DNA of 64,000 bases, taken from positions 1-64,000 of the forward strand of contig JALUTY010000013.1 of the NCBI GenBank assembly GCA_027021615.1. Direction: 5' to 3'. Shown in pieces: positions 33,445 to 50,905 of this stretch. The notes beneath the pieces are model-generated. The model was not told the DNA's origin and did no database searches. It worked only from the letters and a program-made list of their open reading frames with translations. Every line of letters begins with the position of its first letter. Positions within the stretch are counted from its first letter, which is position 1. Made by a program: the position numbers and the translations under genes. This DNA is from a bacterium. Its GTDB lineage: Bacteria; Desulfobacterota; Deferrisomatia; Deferrisomatales; Deferrisomataceae.

Positions 33445-33810
33445 AAAAGATTCAATGCTTCCAAAAAACTTTTTTTCGGAGCACTTGACACCTCGGGACG
33501 AGGGGGGCATAGTTTTTTCATCTGAGCTTGGAAAATTCGGTTGGGGAAGTCGGGATCGCGATTGCTCTTTGCCCCCCCGGAGAGCTGCCCCCGGCTTCCC
33601 CTTTTGTTTTACTCCCCCCTTTTTAAAACATTTCTGTATCTCTGCACCCCCATACGTCACATAATTGTCACAGACATCCTTCCCTTCCCTCGCCCAACGA
33701 CGGGGGGCCCTCCAGAGCGGCCGGATTCTCCCCCCTTTTCATCCGGGCACACGCCTTGCTTTCGGCCCTCCCCCTGCCAGCCCCTTTCGCACCGAAGCAA
33801 GGAGGAACCG
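33445..33810. other. Intergenic region upstream of amt
   Basis: 366 bp with no gene. After the AAA+ stop there is an A6/T7 inverted repeat (33462-33481), a possible terminator. Further on, GTTTTA...TAAAAC (about 33606-33630) forms a second inverted repeat. A candidate sigma-54 site lies at 33551-33566. Confidence 0.4.
33551..33566 (+). promoter_or_regulatory. Candidate sigma-54 promoter for amt-glnD-glnB
   Basis: CGGGATCGCGATTGCT has GG at 33552-33553 and GC at 33564-33565 with the required 12-nt offset. The -12 element TTGCT is perfect, but the -24 element matches only in GG. It lies 245 bp upstream of the amt ATG. Confidence 0.25.
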
Positions 33811-35087
33811 ATGCGTTTTGCCTGCCCCTTCCGGGCCGCTGCCCCGGCCCTTGCCCTGCTCCTCGTCGTCGGCCCGGCATGGGCCGGGACCGGCCCCAAC
33901 CCCGGCGACACCGCCTGGCTCCTCGCGAGCTCCGCCCTGGTGCTCCTTATGGTGCCGGGCCTCGCCCTGTTCTACGGTGGAATGGTTCGGGCCAAGAACA
34001 TCCTCTCCACCTTGATGCTCAGTTTCATCGCCATGGGCGTGATCGCGGTCCAGTGGGTCGTGGCCGGGTACTCCCTGTCGTTCGGCGGCTCTCCCGGTCC
34101 TTGGATCGGGGGCCTGGACCGGTTGTTCCTCTCGGGGCTCACCCCCGAGACTCTATCCGGCACGGTGCCCACCCTGGCCTTTGCCGTGTTCCAAGGGATG
34201 TTCGCCATTATCACACCGGCACTCATCAGCGGAGCCCTCGTCGAGCGGGTCAAGTTCGGCGCCTACACCTTGTTCATTGTCCTGTGGGCGTTCCTGGTGT
34301 ACGACCCCCTGGCCCACTGGGTGTGGGGCGAGGGCGGGTGGCTGCTCCGGATGGGAGCCCTGGACTTTGCCGGAGGAACCGTGGTGCACGTCTCATCGGG
34401 CGTGTCGGCCTTGGCCGCGATCCTGGTGCTCGGCAAACGTCGGGGGTACCCCACCGAGCGATTCATCCCCCACAACCTGACCATGACCCTGCTGGGGGCG
34501 GGGCTCCTGTGGTTCGGTTGGTTCGGGTTCAACGCCGGCAGCGCCCTGGCGGCCAACGGGACCGCGGTGCTGGCCTTCGTTTCCACCAACACGGCGGCCG
34601 CTGCCGGCATGCTCGGGTGGCTCGCGGCCGAGAAGGTCCGGTTCGGCAGGCCCAGCGCCCTGGGCGCCGCGTCGGGCCTGGTGGCCGGGCTCGTCGCGAT
34701 CACGCCGGGGGCCGGGTTCATCACGCCGGGCTGGGCCATCGTGGTGGGAGGGCTGGCCGGGCTCATCTGCTTCCGCGCCGTGTGCCTCAAAGAACGGCTC
34801 GGCTACGACGACGCCTTGGACGTGTTCGGGGTCCACGGCGTGGGCGGCGCCTGGGGAGCTCTGGCCACCGGCATTTTCGCCACGGTGGGTGCGGGCAGTC
34901 TAATCACCGGGGACCTTCGGCAGTTCGGGGTTCAGGTGGTCGGGGTGGTGGCGGCCGCGGTGTATGCGTTCGTGGTCACCTGGGTCCTGTGTCGGGTCTT
35001 GGACGCCACCATCGGCCTGAGGGTCAGCCCCGAGGACGAGCTCGTGGGGCTGGACCAGACGGCCCATGGCGAGGTGGGTTACTCCCT

Positions 35088-35091
<4 letters not shown>
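33811..35091 (+). CDS. amt: Ammonium transporter
   Basis: 426 residues from the ATG at 33811 after AAGGAGGAACCG. A signal peptide (ALALLLVVGPAWA) is followed by 11 membrane helices. Signatures are LALFYGGMVRAKNILST, DFAGGTVVHVSSGVSALAA (first pore His) and GVHGVGGAWGALATGIFA (second pore His). It conducts ammonium/ammonia and is normally gated by a PII protein, which is encoded two genes downstream. The glnD start overlaps its stop by 4 nt. Confidence 0.96.
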
Positions 35092-37843
<2,752 letters not shown>

Positions 37844-37867
37844 CACACAGCTGGATCCGCCCGCCTC

Positions 37868-41606: not shown

Positions 41607-41704
41607 GGTGTCACCTCCTCGTGCGGGTTCCGTCGGGCAGGCCGGGGAAGATCAAACCCCGTTCTGGGGACCGCTTCAAGGCCGCACTGGCCACCTGCGC
41701 CCAC

Positions 41705-41735
41705 GGCTGGTGAGGGGCCGCCAGGGGTTGGTGAG
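41705..41735. promoter_or_regulatory. Direct repeats spaced 21 bp upstream of cooS (candidate LytTR operator)
   Basis: GGCTGGTGAG (41705-41714) and GGTTGGTGAG (41726-41735) are direct repeats (9 of 10 identical) offset by exactly 21 bp, two helical turns. They lie about 100-130 bp upstream of the cooS ATG. LytTR proteins typically bind pairs of about 9-bp direct repeats with this spacing, and a LytTR regulator is encoded next door. Confidence 0.5.
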
Positions 41736-41750: not shown

Positions 41751-42458
41751 TCAGCGAAGGCCCAGGCGGGAGAACAGCTCCGGCGCCCGGGCCCGGCTCA
41801 CGGGCAAAGGCAGGTCGCTGCCCCGCATGAGCAGGGTGTAGCCGCTGGAGCCGCGCACCACCTTGCGGACCCGGGCCAGGTTGGCGATGTAGCTGCGGTG
41901 GATCCGGTAGAACCGGTCGGAGGGGAGGCGCTCCTCCACGAAGCCCAGGGAGAAGTCGCAGAAGTACTCGCCCTCGGGGGTGTGCACCCGGGAGTAGATG
42001 TTGTCGGCCCGTAGGAACAGCACCTCGTCGGGGTCCAGCAGGTGGATCTCGCGGCCCGAGCTCACCGGGATCTTGACGAACGTGTGCTCCCGGTCGGCCA
42101 CGAACGGGGTGATGTCGTACACCAGCATGCAGTTGAGGGCGTCGGACATGCCCCGGTCCAGCAGGGGGATCAGCTTCAGGAACAGGTAGCGGTCGTCCCG
42201 GCCGTCGCCGATGCGCTTGAACGAGAACGGCACCTGGCGGCTCGAGTCCTTCATCAGCCGGTACATCTGCCGGATGCGCTCCCGGCCGGCCTCGTCGTGG
42301 AACCGCATGATGTCGCCCGAGAACACGTCGTCGCTTGTGATCCCGGCGAAGATCATCAGGAACGCCCGGTTGATGTAGCGCACCGTGAACCGGTCGTCGA
42401 ACAGCACGATCCCGGGGTCGGTGTTCTCGATCAGGCTCAGAAGGCTGTGTCGCTCCAT
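41751..42458 (-). CDS. RcoM-like PAS-LytTR transcriptional regulator (putative CO sensor)
   Basis: 235 residues from the ATG at 42458. Residues ~1-115 are a PAS domain (NTDPGIVLFDDRFTVRYIN, then CMLVYDITPF). Residues ~130-232 are a LytTR DNA-binding domain (EIHLLDPDEVLFLRADNIYS, DRFYRIHRSYIANLARVRKV, LPVSRARAPEL). This two-domain plan is that of RcoM, the haem-PAS CO-responsive regulator. His54 in IMRFHDEAGRERI aligns with the RcoM proximal haem ligand His74. I see no clear equivalent of RcoM Met104. It lies directly upstream of cooS on the same strand, with 21-bp-spaced direct repeats between them. CO sensing is inferred from architecture and position. Confidence 0.8.
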   Translation of the reverse strand: MERHSLLSLIENTDPGIVLFDDRFTVRYINRAFLMIFAGITSDDVFSGDIMRFHDEAGRERIRQMYRLMKDSSRQVPFSFKRIGDGRDDRYLFLKLIPLLDRGMSDALNCMLVYDITPFVADREHTFVKIPVSSGREIHLLDPDEVLFLRADNIYSRVHTPEGEYFCDFSLGFVEERLPSDRFYRIHRSYIANLARVRKVVRGSSGYTLLMRGSDLPLPVSRARAPELFSRLGLR

Positions 42459-42633
42459 GGGTCCACCCGGGGCGCGGGAAGGGGGCCGGATAGGCTGGGG
42501 CACGCCCCTCCCCGGGCCCCCACCGGCGGCGCCCACGGGGCCGGCCGTCCGGGCAGGGAACCCTGGGGAAGGGGAGCCGAGAGGAATCATACCGCGGCAG
42601 GGGCGCGCTACAAAGCGGGAAAGGGGTCCCCCC

Positions 42634-44351: not shown

Positions 44352-45659
44352 ATGCGGCAAGGGAGAAAACGTCTAAGAACCATGATCGCCACGGCGGCAC
44401 TCGGCGCACTTCTGACCGCGCCCTCTTATGGTGCCGCAGAGGAGGAGGTCATCAAGGTCGGCATCCTGCATTCCCTGTCCGGGACCATGGCCATCAGCGA
44501 GACCTCCCTGAAGGACGTCGCGCTGATGGCCATAGAGGAGATCAACGAGTCGGGGGGGCTGCTGGGAAAGAAGATCAAGCCCATTGTGGTGGACCCAGCA
44601 TCCAACTGGCCCCTGTTCGCAGAGAAGGCCCGCGAGCTGATCGAAAAGCATAAGGTTGCGGTCGTGTTCGGCTGCTGGACCTCGGTGTCCAGAAAGTCTG
44701 TACTCCCTGTGTTTGAAGAGCTCAACGCCCTCCTGTTTTACCCCGTGCAGTATGAAGGGGAAGAGTGCTCCTACAACGTCTTCTACACCGGGGCTGCCCC
44801 CAACCAGCAAGCGATCCCGGCTGTTGAGTACCTCATGAGCGAGGAGGGCGGTGGCGCAAAACGGTTCGTGCTACTCGGCACCGACTATGTGTATCCGCGT
44901 ACCACCAACAAGATCCTTCGCGCTTTCCTGCACCAGAAAGGCGTCAGTGACGACGACATCATGGAGATCTACACCCCTTTCGGGCACAGCGACTATCAAA
45001 CCATCGTCGCAAACATCAAAAGGTTCGCAGCAGCAAAACCGACAGCCGTCATCTCTACCATCAACGGCGACTCGAATGTGCCCTTTTACAAGGAGCTGGC
45101 AAACCAGGGGGTTCGGGCCGAGGATATCCCTGTCATCGCCTTTTCTGTGGGTGAAGAAGAGCTGCGGGGCATCGACACGGCGCCCCTCGTGGGTCACCTG
45201 GCGGCCTGGAACTACTTCATGTCCATCGACACCCCCGAGAACCGGGAGTTCGTAAAGAAGTGGAAGGCGTACGTCAAGAAGCACAACCTCCCCGGCGGCG
45301 ACAAACGGGTGACGAACGATCCGATGGAGGCCACCTACATCGGGATCAAGATGTGGGCCCAGGCCGTGCTCCAAGCAGGGACCACGGATGTGGACGCGGT
45401 CAGGCAGGCCATGGGCTATCAGACGTTCAAGGCACCTTCTGGGTATGAGATCCGGATGGACCCGAAGAACCACCATCTCCATAAGCCGGTCTTCATCGGC
45501 GAGATCCGAGAGGACGGCCAGTTCGACATCGTGTGGCAGACCGACGGCCCCATCCGTGCGGAACCCTGGAGCCCGTACCTACCCGACAGCGCCAAAAAGG
45601 TAGCCGACTGGACCTATCCATGGGTGTGCGGCAACTGCACCGAACCGAGATACAAATAA
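44352..45659 (+). CDS. urtA: Urea ABC transporter substrate-binding protein
   Basis: 435 residues from the ATG at 44352 after GGAGGAAACCG. A signal peptide (TMIATAALGALLTAPSYG) precedes a type-1 periplasmic-binding fold of the AmiC/UrtA family. Hallmarks are VGILHSLSGTMAISETSLKD, VFGCWTSVSRKSVLPVFEE, LLFYPVQYEGEECSYNVFY and NDPMEATYIGIKMWAQAV. It captures urea for UrtBCDE and is the first gene of a 12-gene urea uptake and hydrolysis operon. Confidence 0.96.
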   Translation: MRQGRKRLRTMIATAALGALLTAPSYGAAEEEVIKVGILHSLSGTMAISETSLKDVALMAIEEINESGGLLGKKIKPIVVDPASNWPLFAEKARELIEKHKVAVVFGCWTSVSRKSVLPVFEELNALLFYPVQYEGEECSYNVFYTGAAPNQQAIPAVEYLMSEEGGGAKRFVLLGTDYVYPRTTNKILRAFLHQKGVSDDDIMEIYTPFGHSDYQTIVANIKRFAAAKPTAVISTINGDSNVPFYKELANQGVRAEDIPVIAFSVGEEELRGIDTAPLVGHLAAWNYFMSIDTPENREFVKKWKAYVKKHNLPGGDKRVTNDPMEATYIGIKMWAQAVLQAGTTDVDAVRQAMGYQTFKAPSGYEIRMDPKNHHLHKPVFIGEIREDGQFDIVWQTDGPIRAEPWSPYLPDSAKKVADWTYPWVCGNCTEPRYK

Positions 45660-45664
45660 ACCGA

Positions 45665-45703
45665 CTCCGGCGCCCCCGGCTTTCCTGGCGGGGGGCGCCG
45701 GAG
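45665..45703 (+). promoter_or_regulatory. Intercistronic stem-loop between urtA and urtB
   Basis: CTCCGGCGCCCCC (45665-45677) and GGGGGCGCCGGAG (45691-45703) form a perfect 13-bp stem with a 13-nt loop, 5 nt after the urtA stop. No T-run follows. Such hairpins commonly stabilise the upstream message so that the binding protein is made in excess of the permease. Confidence 0.65.
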
Positions 45704-45724
45704 ACAGACCCGGTACAGAGGACC

Positions 45725-47362
45725 ATGTCCCTCAACAGAATCGCATCCATGGGCCTCCTCGCCCTGATCATCTCTCTCGCGTGCCTCGGCAACAGCACGG
45801 CAAGCGCTGCGGGCCTCAAGGAAGCTTTGCAGGGGTTGGGGGCAAAGAGCCGGAGGACCATTCTGCGTTCGATCAAGGTGCTGGGGGCCCTGGGAGACCC
45901 CGCCGCCCTCCCGGCCCTCGAGGCCCTCCGCGACAGGAAGCTTCGTGTCGACGAGCAGGGGCGGGTGTTGATACTCGACGGTGGCGGGGCCTTCGCCCGA
46001 GACATTGTGACCGGCGAGCGGGTGGCGGTTGGGAGCGGACGCCTACGTTCGCCCGTGATCAACAACCGGGTCCGCCGGGTGCTGCTGCCGGTCATCGCGA
46101 GGCTCCAGCTCTCCTCCTCCAGCCCCGAGGTCCGGTTGGCTGCTGCAAGGGAGCTGGCCAAACGACCTCGTCCGGACGCTGCGGGGGCCATCCGGGCCGC
46201 GCTGGAGGCCGAGCGGGACGACGAGGTACGGCAGGCGTTGCAGCTGGCCTTAGCCCAGATCGAGATCGACAGCCAGGACCCTCGCCGTCGGCTCTCTGCC
46301 GTCCGGACGCTCGGGGCTTCTGCCGATGCGAACGTCAGGGAGAGGCTGCGGCGGATGCTCCAGACGAACGAAGCCGGCGAGTTCACCATGGAGCCAAACC
46401 CAGAGGTGCGCGCCGCGGCCGCCGATGCGATCCGCACCATCGAACGGAGGCTGGCCCTCGTCTCTCTCTCCCGCAACCTGTTCTATGGGGTGAGCCTCGG
46501 CAGCGTGCTGCTTCTGGCAGCATTGGGGCTGGCCATCACCTTCGGCCTGATGGGCGTGATCAACATGGCCCACGGTGAGATGCTCATGCTGGGAGCCTAC
46601 GCCACCTTCGTGACCCAGAACCTGTTCCGCACCTACCTGCCGGGGTGGTTCGACTGGTACCTCGTGGCCGCCGTGCCGATGGCCTTCGGCGTGTCGGCCG
46701 TGATGGGAATGGTCCTAGAGCGGTGCATTCTTCGCCACCTTTACGGGCGACCCCTGGAGACCCTGCTGGCGACGTGGGGGATCAGCCTTCTCCTGATCCA
46801 GACGGTACGGTTGGTGTTCGGGGCCCAGAACGTGGAGGTTGCCAGCCCGACGTGGATGTCGGGGGGGACAGAGGTGATGCAAGGGCTCGTGCTGACCCAC
46901 AACCGCGTCGCCATCGTCCTGTTCGTCTTCTTTGCCGTGGCCCTCGTGTGGGTGCTTCTCCGCCGCACCCCGCTCGGTCTGAGGGTGCGCGCCGTCACCC
47001 AGAACCGATCCATGGCCGCGTGCATGGGGGTCTCGGTGTCACGGGTGGACATGTGGACGTTTGGGCTCGGCTCCGGCATCGCGGGGCTGGGCGGGGTGGC
47101 CCTGTCCCAGATCGGCAACGTGGGCCCGGAACTCGGCCAGGCGTACATCGTGGACTCTTTCATGGTGGTCGTGTTGGGGGGGGTGGGGAAGATCGCGGGC
47201 ACCGTGTGGGGGGCTCTCTGCCTGGGCGTGGTGAACAAGTTCTTAGAGCCGTACACGGGCGCCGTGCTCGGGAAGATCCTGGTGCTGGCGTTCATTATCC
47301 TGTTCATCCAGAAGCGGCCCCAGGGGATGTTCGCCCTGAAGGGTCGAACGGCCGAAGGCTGA
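45725..47362 (+). CDS. urtB: Urea ABC transporter permease UrtB
   Basis: 545 residues from the ATG at 45725 with AGAGGA just upstream. A signal peptide is followed by an extended periplasmic helical domain (about residues 25-250; EVRLAAARELAKRP, PEVRAAAADAIRTIE look HEAT-like), as in other UrtB proteins. Then comes a LivH-type permease with about eight helices (AITFGLMGVINMAHGEMLML, RAVTQNRSMAACMGVSVSRV). With UrtC it forms the membrane channel. Confidence 0.95.
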   Translation: MSLNRIASMGLLALIISLACLGNSTASAAGLKEALQGLGAKSRRTILRSIKVLGALGDPAALPALEALRDRKLRVDEQGRVLILDGGGAFARDIVTGERVAVGSGRLRSPVINNRVRRVLLPVIARLQLSSSSPEVRLAAARELAKRPRPDAAGAIRAALEAERDDEVRQALQLALAQIEIDSQDPRRRLSAVRTLGASADANVRERLRRMLQTNEAGEFTMEPNPEVRAAAADAIRTIERRLALVSLSRNLFYGVSLGSVLLLAALGLAITFGLMGVINMAHGEMLMLGAYATFVTQNLFRTYLPGWFDWYLVAAVPMAFGVSAVMGMVLERCILRHLYGRPLETLLATWGISLLLIQTVRLVFGAQNVEVASPTWMSGGTEVMQGLVLTHNRVAIVLFVFFAVALVWVLLRRTPLGLRVRAVTQNRSMAACMGVSVSRVDMWTFGLGSGIAGLGGVALSQIGNVGPELGQAYIVDSFMVVVLGGVGKIAGTVWGALCLGVVNKFLEPYTGAVLGKILVLAFIILFIQKRPQGMFALKGRTAEG

Positions 47363-47363
47363 C

Positions 47364-48485
47364 ATGATGGGATCACGGTTCGATCGCCTAGCGGGCATGC
47401 ACTCACGGCGGGGCTGGCTCGTTACGGCCCTCGTCGCCGCCGTCGGCATCGTCGGGGTTCCCGTGCTCAACCTCGTGCCGCCGCCGGGTACATGGCTCCA
47501 CGTTCCCGACTACATGGTCATGCTCCTTGGCAAGTTCCTCTGCTACGCCATGGTGGCCCTGGCAATGGACCTCATCTGGGGGTTCACGGGAATCCTGAGC
47601 CTCGGGCACGGGGTGTTCTTCGCCCTGGGCGGGTACGCCATGGGGATGCATCTCATGCGCGCCATGGCGGGGGAAGGGGTCTACCGGAGCAACCTGCCGG
47701 ACTTCATGGTGTTCCTCGATTGGAAGGAGCTGCCCTGGTTCTGGTACGGGTTCGACCGGTTCTGGTTTGCCCTGCTCATGGCGGTTCTGGTGCCGGCCCT
47801 GCTGGCCTATGTCTTCGGCTACTTCGCGTTCCGCTCCAGGATCAAGGGGGTCTACTTCTCGATCATCACCCAAGCGATGACCTACGCCCTCATGCTCCTG
47901 TTCTTCCGGAACGAGACAGGCTTTGGGGGGAACAACGGCCTCACCGACTTCAAGCGAATCCTGGGATTTTCCCTTCAGGCCCCCTCCACCAAGCTGGGCC
48001 TCTACATCGTTACCGCCGTGCTCCTCCTGCTCACGTACCTCCTATGCCGGTACATCGTCACCTCCAAGCTCGGCCGGGTGCTCGCTGCCATACGCGACGC
48101 CGAGAGCCGGGTCATGTTCTCCGGATACAACCCGCTCCACTACAAGCTCTTTGTCTGGACCCTGTCGGCGGTCCTGTGTGGGCTCGCCGGAGCCCTGTAC
48201 GTTCCCCAGGTGGGCATCATCAACCCCAGCGAAATGCAGCCCGCCGGATCCATCGAGATGGCGATATGGGTTGCCGTGGGCGGTAGAGGGACCCTTGTCG
48301 GGGCCTTGGTCGGCGCGATGCTGGTCAACGGGATCAAGAGCTGGTTCACCGTCGTCTCCCCCGAGCTGTGGCTGTACGTTCTCGGCGCGCTGTTCATCGG
48401 CGTAACCCTTTTCTTTCCCGAAGGGGCTGCCGCACTTCTGAACCGTTTTCCCAAGGGAAAGGGCTCATGCACGTCGAACCGGTAA
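47364..48485 (+). CDS. urtC: Urea ABC transporter permease UrtC
   Basis: 373 residues, a LivM-type permease. Motifs are AMDLIWGFTGILSLGHGVFF, SIITQAMTYALMLLFFRN, FGGNNGLTDFKRILGF and RDAESRVMFSGYNPLHYKLF. Starts right after urtB (ATGATG; 47364 or 47367). The urtD start lies inside its 3' end, a 19-nt overlap. Confidence 0.95.
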   Translation: MMGSRFDRLAGMHSRRGWLVTALVAAVGIVGVPVLNLVPPPGTWLHVPDYMVMLLGKFLCYAMVALAMDLIWGFTGILSLGHGVFFALGGYAMGMHLMRAMAGEGVYRSNLPDFMVFLDWKELPWFWYGFDRFWFALLMAVLVPALLAYVFGYFAFRSRIKGVYFSIITQAMTYALMLLFFRNETGFGGNNGLTDFKRILGFSLQAPSTKLGLYIVTAVLLLLTYLLCRYIVTSKLGRVLAAIRDAESRVMFSGYNPLHYKLFVWTLSAVLCGLAGALYVPQVGIINPSEMQPAGSIEMAIWVAVGGRGTLVGALVGAMLVNGIKSWFTVVSPELWLYVLGALFIGVTLFFPEGAAALLNRFPKGKGSCTSNR

Positions 48486-49300
48486 GCAGGGGGCCGCGAT
48501 GCCACGGCCTCGAGCCCAAGGGACGAGCCCCCTCGTCCCCCAGGGAAGGCCCGGACACGAGCCATGGCGTCATCCTCTATGTGGAGGGTCTGACGGTCAG
48601 CTTCGACGGGTTCAAGGCCCTCGACGATCTGAACCTCTACATCGAGGACGGTGAGCTGCGGTGCATCATCGGGCCCAATGGAGCCGGCAAGACCACTCTC
48701 ATGGACGTGATCACGGGGAAGACACGCCCGGACGCCGGCACCGTGTTTTTTGGGCAGTCCGTGGACCTCACCCGGCTCACCGAGACACAGATCGCCCAGG
48801 CGGGGATCGGCCGCAAGTTCCAGACACCCACCGTGTTCGAGCAGCACAGCGTGTTCGAGAACCTCGAGCTCGCCCTCCGGGGGGACAAGGGGGTCTGGCA
48901 CAGCCTGTTCGCTCGGCTGACCGGAGGGGAACGGGAGCGCATCGAACAGGTGCTGGAGCTCGTCGGACTGACCGAAAGCATGCACGTCCGGGCCGGACTG
49001 CTTTCCCACGGCCAGAAACAGTGGCTTGAGATCGGAATGTTACTCGTCCAGGATCCTCGGGTGCTGCTCTTGGACGAGCCGGTGGCCGGCATGACGGCCG
49101 GAGAGACCGACCGCACGGCGGAGCTGCTGACCTCCCTTGCAGGAGAGCGCACCGTCGTGGTGGTGGAGCATGACATGGAGTTCGTTCGCAACATCGCGCG
49201 CAGGGTCACGGTGCTGCACGAGGGTCGGGTGCTCGCCGAGGGCGGCATGGATGCCGTGCAAAACGACCCCCGCGTGATCGAGGTGTACCTGGGGAGCTGA
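48467..49300 (+). CDS. urtD: Urea ABC transporter ATPase UrtD
   Basis: 277 residues from the ATG at 48467 after AAGGGAAAGG. A ~34-residue N-terminal extension precedes the ATPase. Walker A is GPNGAGKTT, Q-loop region GIGRKFQTPTVFEQHSVFEN, signature LSHGQKQWLEIGMLL and Walker B VLLLDEPVAGM, with switch His in VVVEHDMEFV. LivG-type. The signature begins LSHGQ, as is usual in UrtD. Confidence 0.94.
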   Translation: MHVEPVSRGPRCHGLEPKGRAPSSPREGPDTSHGVILYVEGLTVSFDGFKALDDLNLYIEDGELRCIIGPNGAGKTTLMDVITGKTRPDAGTVFFGQSVDLTRLTETQIAQAGIGRKFQTPTVFEQHSVFENLELALRGDKGVWHSLFARLTGGERERIEQVLELVGLTESMHVRAGLLSHGQKQWLEIGMLLVQDPRVLLLDEPVAGMTAGETDRTAELLTSLAGERTVVVVEHDMEFVRNIARRVTVLHEGRVLAEGGMDAVQNDPRVIEVYLGS

Positions 49301-49302
49301 GG

Positions 49303-49998
49303 GTGCTCGAGGTCAGCGGTCTCAATCAGTACTACGGCGGAAGCCATATCCTTTGGGACCTCCGGCTGAGCGTGCCCGAAGGGTCCTGCACCTGCATCGT
49401 GGGGCGCAACGGTGTGGGCAAGACCACTTTTCTCAAAGCGGTGATGGGCCTGCTCCCGATCCGATCCGGCAGCATCGTGTTCGAAGGCCGCGAGCTGTCG
49501 GGGCACCCCCCCGAGATCCGTGCCCGTCTCGGGATCGGGTACGTTCCCCAGGGGCGGGAGGTGTTTCCCCATCTCACGGTGGAGGAGAACCTCCGGGTGG
49601 GGTTGGGTGCGCGCCGGGACGGCCTGCGGGAGATTCCCGACTCCGTTTTCGAGCTATTTCCTGCACTCCGAAAAATGCGGCACCGTCGGGGGGGGGACCT
49701 CTCCGGCGGACAGCAGCAGCAGCTCGCGATTGCGCGGGCGCTCGTGATCGATCCGAAGCTTCTGATCCTGGACGAGCCCACGGAGGGGATCCAACCCAAC
49801 ATCGTCCACGAGATCGGCGACGTGATCATGCATCTGAACCGCGAGGGGAACGTGACCGTGCTATTGGTGGAACAGAAGCTGCCGTTCGCGCGGCGCGTAG
49901 CCCGGGACTTTTTCATCATGGAGAAGGGACGAACCGTGGCGAGTGGTCCGATCGAGAGCCTTGATGAGCATCTGGTCCAACGATATCTCACCGTTTGA
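49303..49998 (+). CDS. urtE: Urea ABC transporter ATPase UrtE
   Basis: 231 residues from a GTG at 49303 with GGGAG 7 nt upstream, 2 nt after the urtD stop. LivF-type ATPase: Walker A GRNGVGKTT, signature LSGGQQQQLAIARAL, Walker B LLILDEPTEGIQPNIV. Completes the urea importer. Its 3' end overlaps the start of ureD. Confidence 0.94.
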   Translation: MLEVSGLNQYYGGSHILWDLRLSVPEGSCTCIVGRNGVGKTTFLKAVMGLLPIRSGSIVFEGRELSGHPPEIRARLGIGYVPQGREVFPHLTVEENLRVGLGARRDGLREIPDSVFELFPALRKMRHRRGGDLSGGQQQQLAIARALVIDPKLLILDEPTEGIQPNIVHEIGDVIMHLNREGNVTVLLVEQKLPFARRVARDFFIMEKGRTVASGPIESLDEHLVQRYLTV

Positions 49999-50905
49999 GG
50001 CCGGAGGGGCGCCAGCGCATCCGGCCGGCGGCGGGCCCATCGGGGAGAAGCCTCCGGCCTTGCGACACGCCTCGGCGGAGACGGGGTGGAAGGGAGAGCT
50101 GGTCCTGGAGTTCGCCCGTGCAGACGGTCGGACGGTCTTGGCTCACAGACACCACCGAGGCCCCCTCCTGGTGCAACGGCCTTTCTACCCCGAGGATGGG
50201 GGTGCCTGCCACGTGTATCTGCTGCACCCGCCCGGCGGGGTGGTGGCTGGGGACCGGCTCCGGGTCCGCATCCGGGCGGGAGAGGGGGCGCACGCACTGA
50301 TCACGACCCCTGCCGCAACCAAGATATACCGGAGCCACGGTCCTCGGGCCAACCAGGGGCACCGGCTCAGGGTAGAACCAGGAGGCATCCTCGAGTGGCT
50401 CCCCCAGGAGACCATTCTGTTCAGCGGGGCCCGCGCCGATCTGCACACCCGCGTCGATCTCATCGGCGACGGGGGGTTTCTGGGGTGGGAGATCCTGTGT
50501 GTGGGGCTCCCCGGGTCTGGGGCTCCTTACGACCAAGGAAGCTGGAGCCAGAGCTTCGAGCTTTGGCGCGACGGCTCGCCCCTGGTGCTGGAACGGACCC
50601 GTTTGGGAAGGGAGCCCCGGCCCTTCCGAGCCCCTTGGGGGTTGGGGGGCTACACGGTAGTGGCGAGCTTGCTCTGCGCCACGAGCCATCCCGAAGCGGT
50701 AGAGCGGGTCCGGGCGGTGCTGGACGCCTCCACGTCGGGGGCAGAGGAGCTGGTCAGCGCCACCCAGCTTCGGGACGCCTTGGTGTGCCGGTATCTCGGG
50801 CACCACGCCGAGAGGGCACGTCGGTGCTTTGTGAGAGTCTGGGAGGTCCTGCGGCCGATCTTTGCGGATCGGCGGGCATGCGCACCTCGCATCTGGAACA
50901 CCTGA
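49964..50905 (+). CDS. ureD: Urease accessory protein UreD
   Basis: 313 residues if the ATG at 49964 is used, overlapping urtE by 35 nt; the start is uncertain, and a GTG at 49943 is an alternative. Family motifs are [43 protein letters not shown] and [14 protein letters not shown]. UreD is the scaffold of the UreDFG nickel-delivery complex. The first ~45 residues are poorly conserved-looking, as is usual. Confidence 0.92.

Follow-up and report, generated by a model that had tools for sequence, protein, structure and literature searches.

RcoM-type regulators and CO dehydrogenase genes

In the characterised RcoM proteins, a His and a Met ligate the Fe(II) haem, and CO replaces the Met (PMC9670170). 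RcoM binds CO very tightly and releases it slowly, properties that have been connected with its unusual haem pocket, and RcoM is under development as a scavenger of CO (PMC11160397). The published RcoM operator consists of three TTCNNGCA direct repeats (PMC11347149). The pairing of rcoM with the anaerobic CO dehydrogenase gene cooS has been described for Geobacter, Pelobacter, Deferribacter and Rubrivivax, along with a "highly similar" cluster lacking cooC in Deferrisoma camini (PMC4703632). Further reports place rcoM beside cooS in Deferribacter (PMC6896113) and among the coo genes in Rubrivivax (PMC4257681).

We analysed a stretch of 64,000 nucleotides (hereafter, the window; positions 1 to 64,000 of contig JALUTY010000013.1, assembly GCA_027021615.1) from a member of the Deferrisomataceae. 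It encodes an RcoM-like regulator followed by cooS, a cooF-like gene and FNOR (Table 1), an order that fits the D. camini cluster as described in PMC4703632. The arrangement rcoM-cooS-(cooC)-cooF-FNOR is also that of GSU2099, the RcoM of Geobacter sulfurreducens; cooC is absent from the window's regulator-cooS-cooF-FNOR cluster, as it is from that of D. camini. The GSU2099 and D. camini proteins, compared here by published description and not by sequence, are probably of the same kind as the window's regulator. The initial annotation had noted that anaerobic cooS clusters are more often under the control of CooA. However, the literature already contains this setting, including the lookalike D. 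camini cluster (PMC4703632), and rcoM beside an anaerobic cooS is therefore an established arrangement and not a new one. A literature search, whose scope did not extend to the primary RcoM papers, found no haem-, CO- or DNA-binding results for RcoM-like proteins without the Met; the primary RcoM literature may already mention such homologues.

Table 1. Features of the regulator and CO dehydrogenase locus, in window coordinates
Feature	Position	Strand	Details
FNOR, FAD-dependent NAD(P) oxidoreductase, 405 aa	37868..39085	-	GTG start overlaps the cooF end; Pyr_redox_2, E = 5.2e-44
cooF-like ferredoxin, 198 aa	39082..39678	-	CxxCxxC-type iron-sulphur cysteine clusters; ORF, place, motifs, cluster in PMC4703632
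cooS, anaerobic Ni-containing CO dehydrogenase catalytic subunit, 637 aa	39693..41606	-	TIGR01702, 725 bits (cutoff 478)
Candidate LytTR operator upstream of cooS	41687..41735	-	CTCACCA 41735-41729 and CTCACCA 41714-41708, 21 bp apart, then GGTGGCCAG 41695-41687
RcoM-like regulator, 235 aa	41751..42458	-	PAS at about 6-120, LytTR DNA-binding domain at about 124-235; ORF, Pfam, AlphaFold2 model, alignment
Possible promoter of the regulator gene	42583..42613	-	TTGTAG-N16-TATGAT; suggested by conservation only

A PAS-LytTR regulator adjoining an anaerobic CO dehydrogenase

The initial annotation had placed the regulator gene at 41751-42458, an interval that holds; the coding strand is the minus strand (42458..41751), while the plus-strand frame contains a stop. 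Third-position GC over its 235 codons is 0.97, against 0.98 in cooS, and dN/dS ranges from 0.09 to 0.37 in comparisons with four relatives. The regulator is therefore a genuine coding gene under purifying selection, and it is the only one of RcoM-like type found by a search of the window's genome.

A Pfam search assigned residues 137-232 to LytTR (PF04397; E = 1.5e-21, 76.8 bits against a cutoff of 22.6). PAS_4 and PAS_9 matched weakly at 11-118 (E of about 4e-4, under the Pfam cutoffs), and the NCBIfam sensory_box profile scored 27.0 bits, exceeding its cutoff of 22.9. The AlphaFold2 model shows a PAS fold joined to a LytTR fold (mean pLDDT 87, pTM 0.81). In a Foldseek search with this model, the LytTR structure 3d6w ranked first, followed by many PAS domains, including those of LOV proteins, EcDOS and FixL. 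Together, these profile and structural matches bear out the PAS plus LytTR architecture first proposed from the sequence. Flavin-binding LOV domains fitted the model at least as closely as haem-PAS domains did, so the PAS fold is no proof of haem. According to the fold search and general knowledge, the haem-PAS proteins FixL and EcDOS resemble the regulator in the PAS fold and in having a haem-binding His near helix F, but that His lies elsewhere in the helix, and their outputs are a kinase and a diesterase. PDB entries matching RcoM by sequence were limited to the LytTR domain.

CooA is likewise a one-component CO sensor acting over anaerobic CO oxidation genes, but it has a CRP/FNR fold and is unrelated. 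The Pfam search found neither a cNMP-binding nor a Crp HTH domain in the regulator, which thus does not have the fold of CooA. When the window's genome was searched with a CooA probe, it returned only CRP-family proteins of about 30% identity, which does not amount to evidence for CooA.

Downstream of the regulator, on the same strand and after a gap of 144 bp, lies cooS, whose TIGR01702 score is well above the cutoff (Table 1); the claim that the regulator adjoins an anaerobic CO dehydrogenase thus stands. Besides the regulator-linked cooS, the genome contains two more, making three in all: a second within an FNOR-cooF-cooS cluster and a third within a CODH/acetyl-CoA synthase cluster. The second, stand-alone cluster (L082, G000:C30, 309-4329) has no RcoM-like regulator beside it. 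The third (L083, G000:C45, 3854-14196) includes a CooC-like ATPase, and its association with acetyl-CoA synthase suggests that the organism may possess the Wood-Ljungdahl pathway. Nitrogen genes, named by eye from their translations, flank the CO cluster of the window at 33541-37846 and 44352-50905. One flank has genes for an ammonium transporter, a GlnD-like protein and a GlnB-like PII protein, and the opposite flank has urea transporter genes and a urease accessory gene.

The axial His is conserved and the distal Met is replaced

Residues were compared across 22 aligned sequences. Of these, 21 are homologues belonging to the window's phylum, the regulator itself among them; the other is the RcoM of Paraburkholderia aromaticivorans (L032), which is encoded beside aerobic coxMSL genes and served as the reference. 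Database sequences were used for all residue comparisons. L032 is about 78% identical to the RcoM-1 sequence that was used only as a search probe. His54 of the regulator aligns with RcoM His74, in agreement with the initial annotation, and every one of the 22 homologues has it; the genes of 17 of these adjoin cooS. The outcome that the initial annotation had named as refuting, a lack of His54 conservation in close relatives encoded beside cooS, was therefore looked for and did not occur. Only three other PAS columns (G16, V18 and N30) are invariant in this alignment. Five ordinary PAS domains of the same phylum lack a His in the His54 column, although one of them (L026) has a His a residue away.

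The residue in the Met104 column of RcoM is not Met in the regulator, as the first reading of the sequence had proposed; it is Phe80. No Met occurs within residues 70-102, so a misalignment of strand G cannot hide one. Across the alignment, Met is found in this column in 5 of the 22 sequences (the Paraburkholderia L032, G219, G336, G311 and G159), and Phe, Ile or Leu in the remaining 17. In the AlphaFold2 model, His54 directly precedes helix F (56-71), and Phe80 is within strand G (78-83). The model of a Met-bearing relative, of lower confidence (pLDDT 76), has His47 and Met73 in matching places and a tighter G-H turn.

The regulator thus resembles RcoM-1 and RcoM-2 of Paraburkholderia xenovorans, as well as L032, in its one-component PAS plus LytTR organisation, its axial His column and the CO dehydrogenase genes adjoining it. 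It differs from them in carrying Phe80 in the Met104 column, in lacking Cys94 and in having a longer G-H loop, and is only 24-25% identical to them. The presumed target also differs, being an aerobic Mo-CODH in Paraburkholderia and an anaerobic Ni-CODH here.

A clade of RcoM-like proteins without the distal Met

The 17 Met-less homologues come from six families of one phylum. In an unrooted maximum-likelihood tree, a single branch with 99/97 support separates them from the five Met-bearing sequences. The split persisted on removal of strand G (97/93) and in an analysis of only the PAS domain (95), whereas the LytTR domain alone did not resolve it (31). The Paraburkholderia protein has a long branch and lies on the opposite side of the split from the window's regulator. 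By alignment and phylogeny, the missing Met marks a whole clade of mostly cooS-linked RcoM-like proteins and is not the quirk of a single gene. The altered distal ligand noted in the initial annotation is, therefore, correct as regards the absence of Met, but it is not particular to this protein. Compared with the Met-ligated RcoM group, the regulator shares the domains, the His and the adjacency to CO dehydrogenase genes, and it departs from that group in lacking the Met, in its position on the tree and in the operator.

In the Met-less set, cooS adjoins 15 of the 17 regulator genes, in five gene orders: rcoM-cooS-cooF-FNOR, rcoM-cooF-cooS, rcoM-cooS-cooC-like, cooS-rcoM, and cooS with rcoM 1.3 kb further on. 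This diversity indicates that the link between regulator and cooS has outlived rearrangement. The two homologues without cooS beside them belong to G003 and G396. G003, a genome of the same family as the window's, carries a 90%-identical copy of the regulator (L035, 6938-7645) next to genes that, judged by eye, look like those of CRISPR type III. Its dN/dS of 0.22-0.37 looks like purifying selection, and the sole cooS of the genome is partial and located at a contig edge. Possibly this copy acts on a gene at another locus; alternatively, the metagenome-assembled genome may be incomplete.

Two of the five Met-bearing homologues (G219 and G336) are also encoded beside cooS. They share with the window's regulator the order rcoM-cooS-cooF-FNOR, the domains and the His, but they lie across the dividing branch of the tree and keep the Met. 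Because the Met is kept beside cooS and in the same gene order, we rejected the idea that its loss accompanies a switch from an aerobic to an anaerobic CO dehydrogenase. At the scale of the phylum, cooS was detected in 246 of the 395 sampled genomes and a full-length RcoM-like regulator in only 19, so RcoM-type control is a minority choice.

Proposed mode of action and alternative explanations

Given its domain order, axial His and neighbouring genes, the regulator likely works like RcoM. Our preferred reading, to which we assign a probability of about two in three, is that of a one-component haem-PAS CO sensor that would activate cooS-cooF-FNOR as RcoM does, with a non-Met distal side and, in the simplest case, a five-coordinate Fe(II) haem. 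In the PAS domain, a b-type haem would be bound by His54, where helix F begins. Binding of CO to the ferrous haem iron would cause a change that passes to the LytTR domain, which would then bind direct repeats upstream of cooS and switch the gene on. Both the His54-bound haem and CO-triggered LytTR binding near cooS are expected from the analogy with RcoM (PMC9670170). The predicted departure concerns the distal pocket, where Phe80 (sister lineages have Ile or Leu) occupies the place at which the RcoM strand offers Met104, with the invariant Lys81 next to it. The resting state would then most likely be five-coordinate Fe(II), as in FixL, or would involve another sixth ligand, but not the six-coordinate His/Met arrangement. 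The simplest prediction, given a hydrophobic residue in this place, is five-coordinate Fe(II). The distal side of FixL is non-ligating.

It is unlikely that the haem is instead six-coordinate, with Lys81, or Met65 of helix F, replacing Met104 as the ligand displaced by CO. Both residues are specific to the clade without Met104, since Lys81 is present in 17/17 Met-less and 0/5 Met-bearing homologues, and Met65 in 16/17 and 0/5, respectively. However, Lys81 follows Phe80 in strand G, where strand alternation should make it face away from the Met104 side (although a one-residue register shift is possible), while Met65 sits on the His-side helix and is replaced by Ile in G095. Lysine is, moreover, a rare haem ligand in gas sensors.

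We regard it as quite unlikely that the PAS domain senses something else, such as a flavin or redox state, a metabolite, NO or O2, with His54 playing a structural role and the CO genes still under the control of the regulator. Some of the top fold matches are LOV and flavin PAS structures, and His is common near this site in PAS domains generally (the 'HPED' motif, one residue off in the control L026); both points are consistent with such a sensor. Against it, His54 is exactly aligned with the proven haem ligand of a homologue with the same domain order, and several lineages show the RcoM-like gene linked to CO dehydrogenase. It is highly improbable that the protein is an ordinary RcoM whose Met is supplied elsewhere, with strand G misaligned, for although its G-H loop is longer than in Met-bearing relatives and imposes alignment gaps, no shift within strands G or H brings a Met into place, and the same Met-less pattern recurs in all 17 sequences.

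The Met-less, cooS-linked clade could represent a second design by which anaerobes sense CO with a haem-PAS domain. The sixth position of the ferrous haem would then be empty or filled by a residue that is not known to play such a part in CO sensors, the invariant Lys81. We advance this broader proposal tentatively, at less than even odds. Were it true, the CO affinity, oxygen behaviour and switching mechanism of the second design would differ from those of RcoM. A natural clade that has the His and the CO dehydrogenase link but not the Met, next to Met-bearing relatives with the same gene order, provides a ready comparison, which could show whether the Met serves in ligand switching, CO affinity or oxygen tolerance.

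Candidate promoter and operator sequences

Upstream of the regulator gene, the GGTATGATTCC block of the possible promoter is identical in four relatives, in one of which the rest of the region has diverged; in this alignment, a TATGAT block upstream of the gene is identical in four relatives. In the gap before cooS, the pair of CTCACCA repeats and a third, looser copy are shared with two congeners. The probability of finding such a candidate by chance is 0.43 in this genome and 0.10 and 0.04 in two congeners, values not low enough to claim an operator, and these repeats are put forward as a lead only.

We also scanned the regions upstream of 22 gene starts for the RcoM operator pattern, defined as three TTCNNGCA direct repeats at a spacing of about 21 bp. 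The triplet was found only in the control, upstream of the Paraburkholderia cox cluster (P = 0.01), and not upstream of the window's cluster. An unsupervised scan for triplet repeats gave weak values in the window's genus, P = 0.003 for the cooS of G083 and P = 0.000 for G176, although the latter resembles an A/T-rich run. In the rcoM-cooS gap of L040 and L041, three TTTATCCA-like units spaced by about 20-21 bp are kept between two congeners (P = 0.003 and 0.16). From their sequence and spacing, these units are a possible operator of the Met-less clade.
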